A stretch of 64,000 bases of DNA. Origin: Alicyclobacillus sp. GTDB taxonomy: Bacteria; Bacillota; Bacilli; Alicyclobacillales; Alicyclobacillaceae. The stretch lies in the NCBI RefSeq assembly GCF_023511815.1, contig NZ_JAIMAV010000003.1, forward strand, positions 1 to 64,000, given 5' to 3'. This document shows positions 47,852-58,050 of the stretch, one piece after another (the first letter of the stretch is position 1; each line of letters starts with the position of its first letter). Under the pieces are notes generated by a model that worked only from the letters and a program-made list of their open reading frames with translations, did no database searches and had not been told where the DNA came from. Position numbers and translations under genes: made by a program.

Positions 47852-49005
47852 CGTTTCGCCACCCGCTCTCGGTACAGGCGCACGTGGTCCTCCATCTGGG
47901 CGATGGAGTCCCCGCCGAATTTTTCCATGAACGCCTCGGCCACGACCCAGGCGGCGACGTTCTCTCCGACCACCGAGGCGGCGGGCACCGCGCAATAGTC
48001 GGAACGCTCGACGGCGGCGGGTTCAGGCGCCTTGGTCCGCATGTCCACGCTCATCAGGGGGGTGTACAGGGTCGAGATGGGTTTCATCGCGACGCGCAGG
48101 ACAATCGGCTCTCCGTTGGTGACGCCGCCCTCCAATCCGCCCGCGCCGTTGGTCGGCCGCAGATAACGCGATCCGTCGTGCAGGATGGCGTCGTGCACCT
48201 GCGATCCGAACCGGTGCGCCGCCTCGAAGCCGAGGCCAATCTCGACACCCTTGATGGCCTGGATGCTCATGAGGGCGCCGGCCAGACGTCCGTCCAACCG
48301 CCGGTCCGGATGCGCGTAGCTGCCCAGGCCCACCGGACATCCCCGCACGATGATCTCAAACACGCCGCCCACGGTGTCCCCTTTGGCCTTGGCCTCGTCG
48401 ATCTTGGCCACCATCCGCTGGCTGGCCTCCGGATCCGCGCAGCGGACCGGTGAGCTCTCGGCCGCCCGGATGAGATCCTCCCACGTGTCCGGGACGTCCT
48501 GGGCCCGCTCACCGCCGATCTCGACGACGTGCGCGGTCAGGGTGATGCCGAAGTATTCCAACAGCTGGCGCGCCAGTGCGCCGGCCGCCACCAGCGTCGC
48601 CGTGTTGCGGGCGCTCGCGCGTTCCAGAACGTTGCGGATGTCCTCGTGATCGTACTTGATGGCCCCGGCGAGGTCCGCGTGGCCGGGCCGCGGCCGCGTG
48701 ACCTGCTTCAGCTGCTCCGGCGGGGCGTCCCAAACCGCCATCTTCTCCGTCCAGTGCGAGAAGTCGCGGTTCTGAATGTGCATCGTGATGGGCGTGCCGA
48801 GGGTCCTGCCAAAGCGGATGCCGCTGGTGACCTCCACCCGGTCGCTCTCAATCTGCTGCCGCCGGCCGCGCCCGTACCCCTGTTGGCGCCGCCGCAACTG
48901 CTCGTCAATCTTGTCCCGCGACACCGGCAGGTTGCTCGGGAACCCCTCCACAATCACCGTCAGCCCGGGGCCGTGGGACTCCCCCGCGGTCAGGTAACGT
49001 ATCAT
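47848..49005 (-). CDS. aroC: Chorismate synthase
   Basis: A 385-residue FMN-dependent enzyme, last step to chorismate. MIRYLTAGESHGPGL, the RGRRQQIESDRVEV segment, RPRPGHADLAGAIKY, ERASARNTA and the C-terminal SDYCAVPAASVVGE are present. The third ATG (49005), 9 bases after GAGG, is favoured. First gene of the aromatic supraoperon (aroF in older B. subtilis naming). Confidence 0.96.
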   Translation of the reverse strand: MIRYLTAGESHGPGLTVIVEGFPSNLPVSRDKIDEQLRRRQQGYGRGRRQQIESDRVEVTSGIRFGRTLGTPITMHIQNRDFSHWTEKMAVWDAPPEQLKQVTRPRPGHADLAGAIKYDHEDIRNVLERASARNTATLVAAGALARQLLEYFGITLTAHVVEIGGERAQDVPDTWEDLIRAAESSPVRCADPEASQRMVAKIDEAKAKGDTVGGVFEIIVRGCPVGLGSYAHPDRRLDGRLAGALMSIQAIKGVEIGLGFEAAHRFGSQVHDAILHDGSRYLRPTNGAGGLEGGVTNGEPIVLRVAMKPISTLYTPLMSVDMRTKAPEPAAVERSDYCAVPAASVVGENVAAWVVAEAFMEKFGGDSIAQMEDHVRLYRERVAKR

Positions 49006-49105
49006 GGCCATCCGCCTCTCTCGGTTGCTCAGGTTGAAATGGTGGAAATGAACGGCCGCAGGGCGTGCGCGTGCGAGACGCCCGTCCAAGCCGCAAAGAA
49101 TTTGG

Positions 49106-49120
49106 GTGCTATTATAGCAC
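49106..49120 (-). promoter_or_regulatory. Putative aroC promoter -10 within a palindrome
   Basis: The minus strand reads GTGCTATAATAGCAC: a TATAAT hexamer (49116-49111) inside a 7-bp palindrome with one central base, 101 bases before aroC. The -35 is poor. A protein binding the palindrome could block the promoter. Confidence 0.45.
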
Positions 49121-49215
49121 GGATCCCGCCCCGGCCGGAGGCCGGATTCGTCGCCTGCGCACCCGCGCCGGGGCGGGGGCGGATGGGTGCATCGCCCCGC
49201 CGCCCCGTCCCGGTT

Positions 49216-50214
49216 TCACCACGACGCGGCCGCCGCCACGACCCAGCGCACGGCCGCATCGAGATCGCGAAGGTCGATGACCTGCATCATTCCGCTCCGG
49301 CGCGCCGGGTACGACACGCCGCCGACCTTGACCCCGGCCTGCGACAGCTGCACCGCGCCGGCATCCGACTGACCGCGCGGCCAGACCTCGTACTGGATCT
49401 CAACGCCCGCCCGGCGGGCGCTCTCCTCCAGGTGATGCTTGACGTCGAGCGGCACCACCGCCGTGCCGTCCATCACCTTGAGGGCCGGGCCCTGTCCGAG
49501 CCGAAGCGCCATCCGCGGCGCCTCCGGCATGTCTCCGGCCGGAGCGGCGTCCACGACGATCGCCAGGTCGGGCTCCAACTGATACGCCGCCGTCCCCGCG
49601 CCGCGGGAGCCGACCGCCTGCTGTGCGGTGAACACCACCGACACCTTCCTTCCCATGGCCGCCAGCCGCAAAAACGCCTCCGCCGCGACGGCGCACCCCG
49701 CCCGGTTGTCGAGCGCCCGGCCGGCCAGGCGGTGCGGGCCCATCTCCACCACGGGTGATTGCACCACACCGGCCGTGCCGAGCGGAACCAGGCGCTGTGC
49801 CTCCGCCTGTGACGCCGCTCCGACGTCGACAAACAGGTGCTCGAACCCGACGTCCTGTGGTTTCACCCGGCTCTCGACTCCGACGACACCCGTGACCCCG
49901 TTGGTGAACTGCACCATCCGGCCGACCAGCGCCTCGGCCGGGACATCGCCGATGGCGATGAGCCGCAGGAATCCCTGTTCGTCCGCGTGGATGGCCATCA
50001 CCCCCGGTTCGTCCGCGTGGGCCACCAGCACCACGTGCTTCCCTTCCCCCGCCTTCGTCGCGATCGCGTTGCCGAGCGCATCCACCCGCACCGTGTCCGC
50101 CGCGGCGCGGATGGCGCCAAGGAGCGCCTCCCGCACCTGTCCCTCGCTTCCCGACGGGGCGACCACCTCCGCCCAGTGGAGAATCCGCGCCTTCAGGCCA
50201 CCGATGTCCGTCAC
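49216..50214 (-). CDS. M42 peptidase-like protein, probably inactive
   Basis: A 332-residue M42 (glutamyl aminopeptidase/TET) family member. The fold and some metal ligands remain (VAHADEPGVM; ALDNRAGCAV; VVDAAPAGD), but the catalytic QEE motif reads QQA (FTAQQAVGSRG) and the C-terminal His ligand (RYIH in its neighbours) is replaced in SYPARRSGMMQV. It probably cannot hydrolyse peptides and may be a structural or regulatory partner of the two active paralogues upstream. GTG 50214 overlaps the preceding gene by 4 bases. Confidence 0.85.
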   Translation of the reverse strand: MTDIGGLKARILHWAEVVAPSGSEGQVREALLGAIRAAADTVRVDALGNAIATKAGEGKHVVLVAHADEPGVMAIHADEQGFLRLIAIGDVPAEALVGRMVQFTNGVTGVVGVESRVKPQDVGFEHLFVDVGAASQAEAQRLVPLGTAGVVQSPVVEMGPHRLAGRALDNRAGCAVAAEAFLRLAAMGRKVSVVFTAQQAVGSRGAGTAAYQLEPDLAIVVDAAPAGDMPEAPRMALRLGQGPALKVMDGTAVVPLDVKHHLEESARRAGVEIQYEVWPRGQSDAGAVQLSQAGVKVGGVSYPARRSGMMQVIDLRDLDAAVRWVVAAAASW

Positions 50215-51236
50215 GCCTGGAAACCCCCTTTCGCGAGCTCCGCCAGCACCGCCCGCACGAGGCGAACGGTGTTCTCGTAATCCTCCAACGACATCACCTG
50301 CGCCGGGGCGTGGATGTAGCGCACCGGGATGGAGATGGACCCGCCGACAACGCCCGCGCGGGTGCGGTGGATGGCGCCGAAGTCGTTCGACCCCCCCTTG
50401 ACCCGCCGGAACTGATAGGGGATATCGTGGCGTTCGGCGACGTGGACCAGAAACTCCAGGAACCGCCGGTCGGCCAGCGTCCGCCCGTCCTGCAGGGTGA
50501 ACGCCGGCCCCCGCCCGAGCACCGTTCCCTGGCCGTGTCCCGGGGCGCGCGCGACGTCGAAGCAAACCGTCCCCTCCAGGGCGATCGCGATGTCGGGTTG
50601 GATCCGGTACGCGGCCGCCATCGCTCCGCGAAGTCCTATCTCCTCCTGCACCGTGAACACGCCGTACACGGGAATCGGGTGAGTTTCGCGCAGCGCCTCG
50701 ACGAGCACAGCGCAGCCGGCGCGATCGTCAAACGACTTGGCCTTCGCGCACCGGACGCCTATCTCCTCATAGCGCGTCGCGAAGACCGCGACGTCGCCGA
50801 GCCGCACGTGCGCCAACGCGTCGTCCCGGTCGCGCGCCCCGATGTCGATGTACAGACTCTCCAACGGCAGCGGCTTGCGCCGCTCCTCCGCCTTCTGCAG
50901 ATGGATCGGCTTGGCGCCGATCACGCCGAAGCGCTTGTCCTCCCCGATGCGCACCGGCTTGGAGACGAGCACCCTGGGGTCCACCCCGCCCAGGGGCCGG
51001 AAGCGGAGCAGCCCGTTTTCCTCCGCGTGCGTGATCATCAGCCCGACCTCGTCCATGTGCGCGTCGAGCATCACCCGCGGACCGGGCTGGTGAACGCCCT
51101 TCTCGCAGATCAGGTTGCCGAGCACGTCGGTGTACACCCGGTCCACACACCCCTCGACCTCTTCCCGCAGCACGCCGCGGATCTCGTCCTCGAAGCCGGA
51201 GGGGCCCATGGCCTCCGTCAATCGTTTCAATAGCAT
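50211..51236 (-). CDS. M42 family metallopeptidase (TET aminopeptidase type)
   Basis: A 341-residue M42 aminopeptidase with the full active site: LDAHMDEVGLMI, SFDDRAGCAV, TVQEEIGLRG, IALEGT and PVRYIHAP. Family members form 12-subunit tetrahedra that trim peptides in the cytosol. ATG 51236 follows GGAGGTG at a long spacing and overlaps the upstream M42 gene by 10 bases. Middle gene of a three-gene M42 operon. Confidence 0.9.
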   Translation of the reverse strand: MLLKRLTEAMGPSGFEDEIRGVLREEVEGCVDRVYTDVLGNLICEKGVHQPGPRVMLDAHMDEVGLMITHAEENGLLRFRPLGGVDPRVLVSKPVRIGEDKRFGVIGAKPIHLQKAEERRKPLPLESLYIDIGARDRDDALAHVRLGDVAVFATRYEEIGVRCAKAKSFDDRAGCAVLVEALRETHPIPVYGVFTVQEEIGLRGAMAAAYRIQPDIAIALEGTVCFDVARAPGHGQGTVLGRGPAFTLQDGRTLADRRFLEFLVHVAERHDIPYQFRRVKGGSNDFGAIHRTRAGVVGGSISIPVRYIHAPAQVMSLEDYENTVRLVRAVLAELAKGGFQA

Positions 51237-52282
51237 GACAGACCGGCCACCTCCTTTTCGGTCACCCCGGCGATGTAGTGGGCCAAAAGCCGTCCGCACT
51301 CGGCGATGTCGTCGTACGCCGCGGTCTCGACCGAGCAGTGCATGTACCGGATGGCCACGCCGACCAATCCGCAGGCAATCCCTTCCCGCGCGATTTGAAA
51401 CGCCCGCGCGTCGGTGCCCGTCGGCCCCTGCGTCAGCTCCACCTGGTACGGGACGCGGTGTCTGTCCGCCGCGTCCCGCAACCCGCGGAACACCTTCGGA
51501 TGGATGTTCGGCCCGAACGCGATGGCCGGGCCCTTGCCCATCTTGAAGCTCTCATCCGGCGCCTGGCCGGGCATGTCGGCGAAGGTCACGTCAATCGCAA
51601 TGGCGATGTCCGGATTCAACGCGTGGCCCGCCGTGGCCGCCCCGCGCACGCCGACTTCCTCCTGGACACTGGCGACCGCCAGCACGTCCGAGCGGTGCCG
51701 CAGGCCGCGCAGGGTCTCAAGACACTCCAGGATCACCGCGATGCTCGCGCGGTCGTCCAGGGCTTTGCCGGCGATGCGCCCGTTGAGCAAATCCATCGTC
51801 TCCCGGCGCAGGGTGACGCGGTCGCCGACGGTGACCCGCTCGCGCACACATGCCTCTGGCATCGCCAGGTCGATGAACAGATCCTCCAGGGGCGCCGCCT
51901 GCCGGCGCTCCTCCGGAGTCGTCAGATGCGGGGGCTTCGATCCGATGATGCCCGTCAATCGCTCCCGCCCGTGCACCACGACCTCCTGGCCGACGAGGGT
52001 GCGCGGATCGAATCCGCCCGCCTGCCAGACGCGAAGAAAACCGCCCTCCGAAATCTCGGTGACGACCAGCGCGATCTCGTCCATGTGCGCGCTGAGCAGA
52101 ATCCTCGGGCGGGGGCTCGCACCCTCGCCCCGGATGTGGGCAATCACATTGCCCATCCGGTCCACGCGGATGTCGTCCGTGTACCGGGCGAAGGCCGCCT
52201 TCACCCGGTGGGCGACCTCCTCTTCAAAACCGGGGCCGCCGTGCAGTTCCATCAGTTCCCGCAGCGTCTCGCGATGCGACAA
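51227..52282 (-). CDS. M42 family metallopeptidase (TET aminopeptidase type)
   Basis: A 351-residue M42 aminopeptidase. LSAHMDEIALVV, ALDDRASIAV, SVQEEVGVRG, IAIDVTFADMPG and AIRYMHCS give a complete dinuclear metal site. TTG 52282 follows GGGAGGAGG. First gene of the M42 trio; it lies 116 bases after the RluD-type gene. Confidence 0.9.
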   Translation of the reverse strand: MSHRETLRELMELHGGPGFEEEVAHRVKAAFARYTDDIRVDRMGNVIAHIRGEGASPRPRILLSAHMDEIALVVTEISEGGFLRVWQAGGFDPRTLVGQEVVVHGRERLTGIIGSKPPHLTTPEERRQAAPLEDLFIDLAMPEACVRERVTVGDRVTLRRETMDLLNGRIAGKALDDRASIAVILECLETLRGLRHRSDVLAVASVQEEVGVRGAATAGHALNPDIAIAIDVTFADMPGQAPDESFKMGKGPAIAFGPNIHPKVFRGLRDAADRHRVPYQVELTQGPTGTDARAFQIAREGIACGLVGVAIRYMHCSVETAAYDDIAECGRLLAHYIAGVTEKEVAGLSCY

Positions 52283-52398
52283 GGTCCCGCCTCCTCCCCG
52301 TATCCAACTGACGCCAATCCAGCTGACCCAAATCCCGCAAAGCCCGTTTCACTCCGCCCGATCGAAGCGCACCGGTCCCCGACCGCCGAGGCCATCCG

Positions 52399-53415
52399 TC
52401 AGAGGCGCCAGCCGGGCGGCGCCGCAAAGGGATCGGCCAACAGCCGGTCCCAAACCCGCGGATCCCCGCCCGCCTCGCGCCACAGCGTCCGCATGTCCTC
52501 GGGCGGCTCCGCCATCACCCGCCGGACCTCGCCGGTCACCGGGTGCTTCCAGGTCAGCTGCAGGGCGTGCAGCGCCTGCCGGGGGAACGCCAAAAAGGCT
52601 GCGGCGGCGGGATGAGCGGCCGCACGGCGCCACACCGGGCCGCCATAGGCGCGGTCTCCGACCAGCGGCATGTCCACGGCCGCGAAGTGCACGCGGATCT
52701 GGTGCGTCCGCCCGGTCTCGAGCACCACCTGGACCACGGCGACCTGATCCGTGGCGTCCATCATCTGGTAATGCGTGACCGCCCGCTGGCCGCTGGCGGC
52801 GACCACCCGCTTGGTCGGGTTGTTCGGATCCTGGGCGATGGGCAGGTCGATGGTCCGCCATTCTCCGAGGCGCGGCGGGGTGAACGCCTCGCGGTGGTAC
52901 ACCACCGCGCAGTAGGTACGATGCATCCAACCGGATCGCAGCGCCTGGTCGAACAGGTGGTGTGCGTGCGAATGCTTTGCGTACAGGATGAGTCCGGAAG
53001 TGTCCCGGTCCAATCGGTGGACGGCGTGCGGCACCTGTCCGGCCGGCCGCAGATACGCGGTCAGGCCGCCGAGCAGCGTGCCGGTGCGTTCCTTGGACGA
53101 GGGGTGCGACAGCATGCCGGGCGGCTTGTTGACCACCACCACCTCGTCGTCCTCGTACCGGATGTCCAGGGCCATCGGTTCCGCGTCGATGTGCGTGTCC
53201 TCTTGAGGTAACGTAATATGTATTCTGTCACCCAGGTGGACGACCGATTTCAACCGAGCCGGTTGTCCGTTGACCAGCACCCCGTCGCGCAACTTCAGAT
53301 TGCGCACCAGGCGCCGTGAGAACTTCAGCTCGTTCTGCAGGACGCTTCTCACGGTGTGTCCGTCGTGCGCCGCACCGACCGTTATTTCGTACACACGGTG
53401 TTCCCGGTCCGACAC
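52399..53415 (-). CDS. RluD-family pseudouridine synthase
   Basis: A 338-residue RNA pseudouridine synthase. An S4-type N-terminal domain (LKFSRRLVRNLKLRDGVLVNG) precedes the catalytic domain with the Asp motif VHRLDRDTSGLIL, GRTHQIRVHFAAVDMPLVGD and ALHALQLTWKHP. The exact rRNA target cannot be told. GTG 53415 is 5-6 bases after GGAGGG; the track ORF extends antisense through the tRNA gene and is not used. Confidence 0.9.
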   Translation of the reverse strand: MSDREHRVYEITVGAAHDGHTVRSVLQNELKFSRRLVRNLKLRDGVLVNGQPARLKSVVHLGDRIHITLPQEDTHIDAEPMALDIRYEDDEVVVVNKPPGMLSHPSSKERTGTLLGGLTAYLRPAGQVPHAVHRLDRDTSGLILYAKHSHAHHLFDQALRSGWMHRTYCAVVYHREAFTPPRLGEWRTIDLPIAQDPNNPTKRVVAASGQRAVTHYQMMDATDQVAVVQVVLETGRTHQIRVHFAAVDMPLVGDRAYGGPVWRRAAAHPAAAAFLAFPRQALHALQLTWKHPVTGEVRRVMAEPPEDMRTLWREAGGDPRVWDRLLADPFAAPPGWRL

Positions 53416-54523: not shown

Positions 54524-55180
54524 CTGGCGGCACCGATCATCCCCCCATCGCAAGACATCCATCCAGGCCGCACGCCGATCCGGTCCACCCCGGCGCCTCC
54601 CCCGGACCGCCGCGAACGCGCGGTCTGGGGGTGGGACATCGCCGATACGCTCATGGCCATGCCGGTCGATCCCCACACCCTGCACGTCTACTGGTCGTTT
54701 CATCCGCTGAAAGCCAGGATGCTGGCCCGATATTACGACACCCCGTCCGCCTCCATGCCGCTGGTGCTGCGCCTCGAACCGGCGGAGGAGGGTGGGGCGC
54801 AGCCGATGGAAATCGAGGTGGAGCTGGCGTCGTCACAGCAGCGCGTTTACGTCCGAGACCTCCCGGCGGGCCATGGGTGGCAGGTGCAGCTCGGCGTGCG
54901 GACGCCCGAGGGCGGCACCGTGGTTGTCCTCGAAGGCGGCCCGGTTCGAACCCCGCGAGCCTCCGCACAGGACACCCCGCCCGGGTGGCACAACCGGGCG
55001 GCCGGCAACGCCCACGCCGCTGACGCCATCCCACCGGCCGACGACCCGCCGGTCGCGCGCGAGGCCGGATGCGACGACCCGTCTCACGCCGCCGATTGGA
55101 CCAAATGGTTCGACGGTTACTCCCTTCGCACGCCGCTATATCCTTTTCAACAGCACCTTCGGGAGGAGGATGGGCCATGA
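54524..55180 (+). CDS. DUF4912 domain protein
   Basis: A DUF4912 protein of up to 218 residues. The core (MPVDPHTLHVYWSFHPLKARML, then a beta-rich region with VYVRDLPAGHGWQVQLGV) is followed by a Pro/Ala-rich tail. The ORF-track start (54653) would cut off WGWDIADTL, which looks like part of the domain; no ATG, GTG or TTG lies upstream in frame, but a CTG at 54524 follows GGGAG at a good distance, so I propose a CTG start. It overlaps the GH57-GT4 gene (ATGA) and is the first gene of the glycan operon. Confidence 0.75.
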   Translation: MAAPIIPPSQDIHPGRTPIRSTPAPPPDRRERAVWGWDIADTLMAMPVDPHTLHVYWSFHPLKARMLARYYDTPSASMPLVLRLEPAEEGGAQPMEIEVELASSQQRVYVRDLPAGHGWQVQLGVRTPEGGTVVVLEGGPVRTPRASAQDTPPGWHNRAAGNAHAADAIPPADDPPVAREAGCDDPSHAADWTKWFDGYSLRTPLYPFQQHLREEDGP

Positions 55181-58050
55181 CCCCTCGGCGGACGGACCCG
55201 TCCCAGCTCGGCCAGGGCGCCATGGCAGCGGGTCACCTGTGCGTCGTGCTGCACGCGCACCTCCCGTTCGTGCGCCACCCGCGTCAGGCTTCTGCCCTCG
55301 AGGAGCGGTGGCTCTTCGAAGCGCTGCTGGAATCGTACCTGCCCCTGACCGACCGCATGCTTGGCTGGACCCGCGACGGGCTTCCCTGGCATCTCACGCT
55401 CTCCGTCTCCCCGGCGCTCGCCGCCATGTTGGCCGACCCACTCCTGCAAAGCCGTTTCCGCGCCCATTTGGACCGGCTGATCCGGCTGGCGGCGGACGAA
55501 CGGTCGCGGCTCATGGGCGATCCCAACTTTGGCCATCTCCCCGGCTATTACCTGCAACAGTTCCTCCACTGGCGCGAAGCGTACGACACCTGGGGGTGGC
55601 GGCTGCTCGACGTGTGGCGAGCGTTGGCCGATCAGGGACATCTCGAACTCATCCCGACGGCGGCCACCCACGCGTTTTTGCCCCTTCTTTGCACGGAGAC
55701 GTCGGTCCGCGCGCAGGTGGTCACCGCCACGGAGCACCACACGCGGGTGTTCGGCCGCCCGCCCGAAGGTTTCTGGCTCCCCGAGTGCGGATTTCGCCCC
55801 GGCCTCGACGAGGTGCTCCGCGGAGCCGGCATCCGCTACACCTTTGTCGAGACCCACGGCCTCACCACCGCTCGCCCGCTGCCGGTCCACGGGCCGTACG
55901 CGCCCGTGCGGACGCCGGCCGGACTCGCGGTGTTCGCCCGGGATCCGGAATGCGGACGCCAGGTGTGGAGCGCCACGGAGGGCTATCCGGGCGACCCGGT
56001 GTACCGGGAGTTCTACCGGGACATCGGGTACGAACGCCCGTGGGAGATGGTCGCACCCGCCTTGCCCGAGGGGGTGCGGGTGGACACCGGGTTGAAGTAC
56101 TGGCGCGTCACGGGCCCGGGACCGGACAAGGCCCCATATCACCCAGAGCGGGCGAGGTCCCGCGCGGCGGAGCACGCCCGCCACTTTCTCGACGCGCGAG
56201 TGGAACACGCCCGGCGGCTTTGGGACCTGGGCCACCCCTCCCCCGTGTTCACGGCGGTGTACGACGCGGAGCTGTTCGGCCACTGGTGGTACGAGGGCCC
56301 CGCCTTCCTCGACGCGCTGATAAGGCTAGCCTCAGGCGGATTGAAAGGGCTCAACCTCACGACTCCGGGCCGCCTGCTGGCGGACGCTCGCGGTCTCGAG
56401 GTGTGCACGCTCGAGGCGACCAGCTGGGGGCGGGGGGGATACGCGGACGTCTGGTTGAATCCGTCCAACGATTGGATGTATCCGCATCTGCATCGGATGG
56501 AGCGGGCCATGGAGCGTCTGGCCCAACGTCATTCGGACGATGCGCCGCCCCTGATCCGGCGGGCCGTGCGCCAGGCCGCGCGAGAGCTGATGCTGGCGCA
56601 GGGCAGCGACTGGGCCTTCATCCTCGATCACGGCACTGCAACGGACTACGCCCTGCGCCGCGTGCGCCAGCACATCGACCGTTTCTGGTGCCTCGCCCGC
56701 ATGGTTGAGGAGGACCGCCCCGATCCCCGCGAGCTGGAACGCGTCGAGGTGGAGGACAACCTGTTCCAGGACCTTCGCCCCGCCGTCTATCGCCCCGCCG
56801 TTGCGCCCCGCCCGCCGGTTTCCAGCCGGGAGACGCACGGATCTCAGGGAACGGTCTCCGGCGGGCGAGCCGTGTTGATGCTGGCGTGGGAGTACCCGCC
56901 GCTGGTCGTGGGCGGTCTGGCGCGCCACGTGGCCCATCTGGCGGAGGCTCTGGTGGAAACCGGATGGCGCGTGCACGTGGTCGTGCGCGGAGAGGGAGAC
57001 GGCCAAACGCACGAGCGGGTCCGCGGGGTGTCGGTGCACCGGGTCCACGTGCGGCCACAGCCGGAAACCGGATTTCTCGACTGGGTCGCACAGCTCAACG
57101 TCGCCCTGTTCGATCTCGCCCGAGAGGTGCTGGCCGCCGAACCTTCGGTGGCGCTGGTGCACGCGCACGACTGGTTGGTACATCCGGCCGCAGCCGCCCT
57201 CTCCGACGCCTTCGCGCTGCCCTTGGTGTGCACCGTCCACGCCACCGAGCATGGCCGCAACGGGGGCATCCACACCCGCATCCAGGCTCGCATTCACGAG
57301 GAGGAGCGCCGTCTCGTCCGGCGGGCGAGCCATGTGATTGTCTGCAGCCGGGCCATGCGTGAGGAGGTGGCGCGTCTGTTTGACCGCTCCCGGGACGAGA
57401 TCACCGTGATCCCCAACGGGGTGCTCCGCCCCGCCGACCGGTCCTGGGCGCCTCCGGCCCCCGCGGGCCCCCCCACGGTGGTCTTCGTCGGGCGGCTGGT
57501 GTACGAGAAGGGCGTTCACGTCCTGCTGGACGCCATGGTCCGCGTCCTTGAGGCGTGCCCCGCGGCCCGATTGGTCGTCATCGGCCGCGGGCCGCTGGAG
57601 GACACGCTTCAAGATCACGCCCGCGGCCTCGGCCTCGCGGACGCGGTCCGGTTTCTCGGCTTTATCCCGGACGCGAGGCGGGACGCGTGGTTGCGCCGGG
57701 CGAGCGTGTGCGTCGTCCCCAGCCTGTACGAACCGTTTGGCATCGCCGCCCTGGAGGCGATGGCGCAGGGGACGCCGGTGGTGGTGTCGAATGCCGGCGG
57801 CCTGCGCGAGGTGGTGGACGACGGCGTCGACGGTCTCGTCGCCCCGGTGGGCGATGCGGACGCCCTCGCCCAGCGGATCCTCCGTGTGCTGGAAGATCCC
57901 GTCCGGGCGCGGTCGTTGGCCGAACGGGCGCGCCGCCGTGTGCAGCGGGAGTTTTCTTGGGGGGTCATCGCCGAGCGGACCGCAAAAGTTTACGAACACG
58001 TGCTCGATCCAACGGTTCAGACGCATCCAGAGGAGGCATGGACAGAATGA
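55177..58050 (+). CDS. GH57 glucan-branching-type enzyme fused to GT4 glycosyltransferase
   Basis: A 957-residue two-domain protein. Residues about 20-560 form a GH57/DUF1957 module (VVLHAHLPFVRH; nucleophile in GFWLPECGFRPG; acid in VYDAELFGHWWYEGP; WLNPSNDW), as in 1,4-alpha-glucan branching enzymes. After a linker, residues about 600-945 form a GT4/GT5-like synthase (LMLAWEYPPLVVGGLARHV; GRLVYEKGVHVLLDAM; E(x7)E in EPFGIAALEAMAQGTPV). It could extend and branch one glucan. ATG 55177 follows GGGAGGAGG. Confidence 0.9.
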   Translation: MTPRRTDPSQLGQGAMAAGHLCVVLHAHLPFVRHPRQASALEERWLFEALLESYLPLTDRMLGWTRDGLPWHLTLSVSPALAAMLADPLLQSRFRAHLDRLIRLAADERSRLMGDPNFGHLPGYYLQQFLHWREAYDTWGWRLLDVWRALADQGHLELIPTAATHAFLPLLCTETSVRAQVVTATEHHTRVFGRPPEGFWLPECGFRPGLDEVLRGAGIRYTFVETHGLTTARPLPVHGPYAPVRTPAGLAVFARDPECGRQVWSATEGYPGDPVYREFYRDIGYERPWEMVAPALPEGVRVDTGLKYWRVTGPGPDKAPYHPERARSRAAEHARHFLDARVEHARRLWDLGHPSPVFTAVYDAELFGHWWYEGPAFLDALIRLASGGLKGLNLTTPGRLLADARGLEVCTLEATSWGRGGYADVWLNPSNDWMYPHLHRMERAMERLAQRHSDDAPPLIRRAVRQAARELMLAQGSDWAFILDHGTATDYALRRVRQHIDRFWCLARMVEEDRPDPRELERVEVEDNLFQDLRPAVYRPAVAPRPPVSSRETHGSQGTVSGGRAVLMLAWEYPPLVVGGLARHVAHLAEALVETGWRVHVVVRGEGDGQTHERVRGVSVHRVHVRPQPETGFLDWVAQLNVALFDLAREVLAAEPSVALVHAHDWLVHPAAAALSDAFALPLVCTVHATEHGRNGGIHTRIQARIHEEERRLVRRASHVIVCSRAMREEVARLFDRSRDEITVIPNGVLRPADRSWAPPAPAGPPTVVFVGRLVYEKGVHVLLDAMVRVLEACPAARLVVIGRGPLEDTLQDHARGLGLADAVRFLGFIPDARRDAWLRRASVCVVPSLYEPFGIAALEAMAQGTPVVVSNAGGLREVVDDGVDGLVAPVGDADALAQRILRVLEDPVRARSLAERARRRVQREFSWGVIAERTAKVYEHVLDPTVQTHPEEAWTE

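Follow-up and report, generated by a model that had tools for sequence, protein, structure and literature searches.

Aminopeptidases of the M42 family, the TET particles among them, have been described either as homo-oligomers or as mixtures in which the subunits are active, and in them the metal sites link catalysis with assembly. The ligands of metal M1 are a bridging Asp, the second Glu of an EE pair, and a C-terminal His; those of metal M2 are a first His, the same bridging Asp, and a further Asp (in some members a Glu); the general base is the first Glu of the EE pair (PMC4745047, PMC8993905). In PfTET3, Gln206 and Arg212 flank the EE pair and hydrogen-bond across the oligomer interface, Arg311, close to the His, forms a pair with Asp137 at the dimer interface, and the particle partly dissociates when the M1 metal is taken out (PMC4745047). 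M42 dimers have next to no activity, far below that of the active dodecamers (CelM, PMC3511314). Since dimers are so much poorer in activity than dodecamers, and since M1 affects assembly, a subunit devoid of M1 could set the amount of particle. Mixed particles have been described as well: PhTET2 and PhTET3 form ordered heterododecamers in vitro (PMC4220976), and YtoP and YsdC of B. subtilis were cross-linked in cells (PMC10090944; PDB 9a5r).

Three tandem M42 genes

The window analyzed here, a 64,000-nucleotide stretch from an Alicyclobacillus sp., carries three tandem minus-strand ORFs between positions 49216 and 52282, designated A, B, and C. Gene A (51227..52282; 351 aa) has a TTG start with GGAGG upstream. 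Gene B (50211..51236; 341 aa) starts with ATG at 51236, so that its start and the A stop overlap by 10 nt, and for gene C (49216..50214; 332 aa) the GTG start at 50214 shares 4 nt (GTGA) with the B stop. Scores for Pfam Peptidase_M42 (PF05343) are 282.7, 297.7, and 206.3 bits for A, B, and C, respectively, all far over the cut-off of 23.2 bits; with homology over its whole chain, and with its fold, C is thus a member of M42 by descent. Among named relatives the nearest to C, at 77% identity, is encoded in Alicyclobacillus macrosporangiidus (contig NZ_FPBV01000019.1), a member of the group to which the genome belongs. A pseudouridine synthase gene lies upstream of the three genes, and chorismate synthase followed by dehydroquinate synthase lies downstream; promoter and terminator scans of 49000-52700 found no consensus element. 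Elsewhere in the window, a 993-aa ORF on the plus strand (55069-58050) consists of a GH57 branching-enzyme-like half (Glyco_hydro_57 plus BE_C) fused to a GT4-type glycosyltransferase half, with a DUF4912 protein (54653-55180) encoded just upstream.

At the active-site motifs, A reads AHMDE, ALDDR, VQEEVG, IDVT, and RYMH, with all metal ligands, the general base, and the substrate-loop His present; B reads AHMDE, SFDDR, VQEEIG, LEGT, and RYIH, with all ligands and the base present. Both are predicted to be catalytically intact M42 aminopeptidases, and the first-pass annotation was right that both keep the QEE motif and the C-terminal His. C reads AHADE, ALDNR, AQQAVG, VVDAAP, and ARRSGMM. Its residues 198-200 (49615..49623, minus strand) are QQA in place of Gln, the Glu base, and the M1-ligand Glu (E -> Q199, E -> A200), and Ser-Gly at residues 307-308 (49291..49296, minus strand) stands in place of the M1-ligand His. 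With Q199, A200, and Ser-Gly for the base, the M1 Glu, and the His, the M42 reaction should be impossible for C. We regard C as a putative M42 pseudoenzyme, and its loss of catalysis is a well-supported prediction. The same annotation had described C as a QQA form without the C-terminal His that retains an open frame, the start overlap, and the M42 fold, as we also find, and had called its active site lost. That description holds for catalysis and for metal site M1 but not for all the metal ligands: measured against active M42 enzymes, C departs at the general base and the M1 ligands and agrees at the M2 ligands, where His66 (50017..50019, minus strand), D169, and D222 remain, as does D68. C genes that have lost catalysis are called dead below, and the others intact.

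Distribution, descent, and pattern of loss

The order A-B-C was found in every operon read, in approximately 140 Bacillota genomes, and C holds the third position in every complete case. In a first survey, all 54 C genes within the window's order were dead and all 74 outside it were intact. A class-wide search and 20 further loci were then added, which revealed dead C in five additional family-level groups of the class, and intact C in one other (G469, G486); confinement of the dead form to the window's order is ruled out by this wider sample. Overall, C is dead in 69 of 69 genomes of one clade, comprising the window's order and five more Bacilli families (this bacterium plus 68 relatives, in 7 family-level groups), and intact in 77 of 77 genes outside that clade. 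The 77 include one solitary C-like gene, L186 (G649:C78), whose active site is intact and which has no A or B alongside. Ligands and base are intact in every complete A compared, and all 143 B sequences compared are catalytically intact.

All C genes form one clade (support 0.83), and the window's C groups there, with the C of other A-B-C operons, rather than with A or B. Nested within it, dead C is monophyletic (support 0.995, FastTree), although in this approximate tree, with its long branches, the exact sister of dead C is uncertain. Within the window's order a genome has either all three genes or none of them, and the C of the dead clade is never found away from A-B. The set is carried by 54 of the 59 genomes of the order; three of the other five are 82-98% complete and have M42 matches that are only short and weak, the remaining two are incomplete assemblies with only distant M42 matches, and no partial A-B-C operon was seen among these five. 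Disrupted operon members were encountered at two loci: the C match of L153 (G178) has an in-frame TGA, and the B of L127 (G394) reads as two overlapping frames, with assembly error possible in either case.

Among the 69 dead C, the His is lost in every one (it is present in all 77 intact C), the general base in 67, and the second Glu in 52, and the M1 set is complete in none. With the His gone throughout and the base nearly so, the M1 site has disappeared from every dead C. The M2 set is complete in 50 and incomplete in 19, the Asp next to the first His is kept in all 69, and all six ligands are lost in 4. Individual genes stand at different stages of active-site loss: in L184 and L185 (G513, G488) all six ligands are gone and DDR has become PWR, yet Q...GxR is kept, and in L172 (G497) the EE pair survives but both His and the last Asp are gone. 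Intact C has 52 invariant positions; in dead C, 26 of these are still conserved at 95% or more and 12 drop to 80% or less, the latter mostly catalytic or substrate positions (E199, E200, D222, T224, G281-G282-T283, H308, and E311). Loss of the substrate-loop His was considered as a part of the inactivation and ruled out, since catalytically intact C is also without it; any effect exerted via that loop is therefore not new to the dead form. Judged from the sequences, the loss of the M1 site and the base in C is selective and old, and not recent decay.

The frequent survival of the M2 ligands bears on two other readings of C. In PfTET3 the M2 site is the one that is catalytic and binds metal with high affinity (PMC4745047), so C might be a weak aminopeptidase working on the M2 metal alone. 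However, this would be catalysis with the base lost in 67 of 69 cases, with Gly282, Thr283, and Thr224 of the substrate region lost as well, and in some lineages with no ligand at all, and we hold it to be very improbable. The other reading is that C has taken on an independent new role, for example in peptide or amino acid binding via the M2 site or in some other chemistry, in keeping with the 50 complete M2 sets, the invariant Asp beside the first His, and the strong purifying selection on C. Against this, no uniform residue has appeared at the lost positions: the base is replaced by Q, S, N, H, K, G, D, A, or R, a variety that suggests no single new function of that position, and the sole conserved gain in dead C is Gly165. 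As the M2 set is incomplete in 19 cases and C is never apart from A-B in the clade, an independent role seems quite unlikely to us.

In pairs of related species, dN/dS (Nei-Gojobori) lies near 0.07-0.23 in dead C and near 0.03-0.22 in A and B, the value for C often being, in many pairs, 1.5-2 times that for A and B. The ratio of the catalytic to the PDZ-like domain is 0.87 in dead C and 0.855 in intact C, and the catalytic domain is thus not relaxed; the same equality leaves the idea of a specially conserved PDZ-like dimer domain in dead C unsupported. A sequencing error or a decaying pseudogene would account for a broken active site, and for nothing else seen here. With an open frame and the same losses in 69 independent genomes, and with dN/dS well below 1, we give that explanation practically no credence. 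Indeed, the dead form in every close relative, together with purifying selection, excludes sequencing error and recent decay, and there is strong support for the earlier picture of a pseudoenzyme kept alongside active partners. Conservation of the QQA form among relatives had been proposed as a check; the same three losses, in varied forms, occur in 69 of 69 members of one clade and in 0 of 77 intact-type C outside it, a distribution that chance does not explain. A normal QEE and His at the same locus, which the first-pass annotation had taken as the sign of error or decay, is confined to distant relatives, namely Clostridia-like lineages and a single Bacilli family.

Interfaces, assembly, and the role of C

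The PfTET3 residues that make contacts between subunits (PMC4745047) have equivalents that are largely kept in dead C. At the oligomer interface, Q198 (Gln206) is retained in 68 of 69 and R204 (Arg212; 49603..49605, minus strand) in all 69; at the dimer interface, D130 (Asp137) is retained in 67 and R305 (Arg311) in 60. All four of these TET-particle interface residues are present in the window's C, and the residues lost in dead C lie between and beside them. Interface residues kept and catalytic residues lost would mean that assembly has been separated from catalysis, although the fold, or homo-oligomers, might also depend on these residues. A 4-nt or 1-nt overlap of the C start with the B stop is present in 61 of 69 dead cases versus 40 of 72 intact cases with a readable B stop, so the coupling was not loosened by the loss of catalysis. 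Several changes in the partners are fixed alongside dead C and are confounded with phylogeny (S190, Q295, and Y333 in A; P23, S179, and A321 in B, in a numbering that counts residues upstream of the start codons). Relative to intact-C genomes, the B of dead-C genomes (e.g., 50211-51236) has fixed changes close to its active site, a Ser before FDDR and an Ala right after the catalytic His, which may reflect phylogeny only.

A structure model of C, built from 61 C sequences, has a mean pLDDT of 96.5 and a pTM of 0.94. The best matches in a PDB fold search with this model are all M42 particles, with TmPep1050 and the archaeal TETs closest. Against TmPep1050 (4p6y) the TM score is 0.92 and the rmsd 1.6, values that speak to the fold and not to the oligomeric state; against the dimeric and H307A forms of TmPep1050 they are 0.81-0.82 and 3.5-3.6. 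In the H307A mutant, the His loss that occurs naturally in C was made in the laboratory.

The best explanation is that C is probably a conserved non-catalytic subunit of one heteromeric M42 (TET-type) aminopeptidase formed with A and B. A and B would carry the active sites of the particle, and the M1 site and general base of C would have been dismantled in the ancestor of the dead-C Bacilli clade, with the fold, most of the M2 ligands, and the inter-subunit contact residues kept. C would then replace a catalytic dimer in the tetrahedral particle, leaving fewer active sites per chamber, and may determine in what stoichiometry or assembly state the A/B enzyme exists, or how stable it is, possibly with an effect on its activity. 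We infer physical association of the three proteins from translational coupling, co-occurrence, interface conservation, and the published M42 heteromers. Mixed TET dodecamers with a regulatory effect, as the first-pass annotation had proposed, are plausible from the interface residues, the coupled starts, the co-presence of the genes, and those same heteromers; that C may also alter gating in such dodecamers is conjecture.

Several points count against the subunit reading. As removal of M1 partly dissociates the PfTET3 particle, an M1-less C might assemble poorly; all six ligands are lost in 4 of 69 dead C; the interface residues could serve homo-oligomers of C; and in many pairs the evolutionary rate of C is some 1.5-2 times that of A and B. 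An alternative is that C modulates assembly and is not itself a structural part of the particle, its M1-less dimer capping or titrating A/B dimers and so limiting the active dodecamer. Such an arrangement would fit the near inactivity of M42 dimers beside active dodecamers (CelM, PMC3511314), the dissociation favored by M1 removal (PMC4745047), and the existence of structures of dimeric TmPep1050 and of the H307A mutant, in which the same His is lost as in C. However, nearly all dead C retain Q198 and R204 of the oligomer interface in addition to the dimer contacts, and the model is nearer to 4p6y than to the dimer or H307A forms, a comparison to be read knowing that predicted models lean to common conformations. 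We consider this modulator unlikely and retain the subunit reading. It is possible, and we suggest it tentatively, that A, B, and C form a self-compartmentalizing bacterial M42 aminopeptidase, an obligate three-paralogue heteromer in which C is permanently non-catalytic and, with its oligomerization-controlling metal site removed, is a built-in assembly regulator.

A natural, old, and widespread subunit that is without the assembly-linked M1 site and retains its contact surfaces would separate the two functions and provide a test of the role of M1. The results suggest that the A-B-C clusters annotated across Bacillota as separate M42 peptidases are one heteromeric enzyme. For the third gene in the dead-C Bacilli clade, annotation as an active peptidase is unwarranted.

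Comparison with known systems

The best-scoring sequence relative of C in the PDB is TmPep1050 of Thermotoga maritima (TM1050; PDB 3isx, 4p6y), whose fold is among the closest to that of C (TM 0.92) and which is likewise without the substrate-loop His. The difference is that TmPep1050 has all ligands and is active, as a leucyl aminopeptidase stimulated by cobalt (PMC3511314), whereas the window's C is predicted to be without catalysis. For B, the best-scoring T. maritima structure is that of TM1049 (2fvg). From the gene numbers, TM1048-1050 presumably constitutes the same A-B-C cluster.

PhTET2-PhTET3 of Pyrococcus horikoshii offers the likeness of mixed M42 particles made of paralogous subunits (PMC4220976), but there both subunits are active, the particles were formed in vitro, and there is no operon with a dead member. 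YtoP-YsdC of B. subtilis is a case of M42 paralogues of Bacilli cross-linked in cells; it involves two proteins, other than those of the A-B-C operon, and the accessible part of the report describes no dead subunit (PMC10090944; PDB 9a5r). MEROPS lists M42 non-peptidase homologues around CelM, which is itself an active aminopeptidase (PMC3511314). M42 goes unmentioned in a review of inactive metallopeptidase homologues, and no published M42 pseudoenzyme or pseudo-subunit was found in a literature search that covers subscription journals thinly and may have missed a report. The principle of a non-catalytic paralogue in a peptidase complex is familiar from unrelated folds, to which C compares by analogy of principle only: ClpR in the ClpP/R cores of a compartment-type peptidase (PMC6508832), and the alpha subunit of the heteromeric M16 peptidase MPP (PMC11266112). 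Thus, inactive subunits (ClpP/R, MPP) and M42 heteromers are each known; what would be new here, as far as we could find, is an M42 heteromer in which one member is dead and yet conserved.
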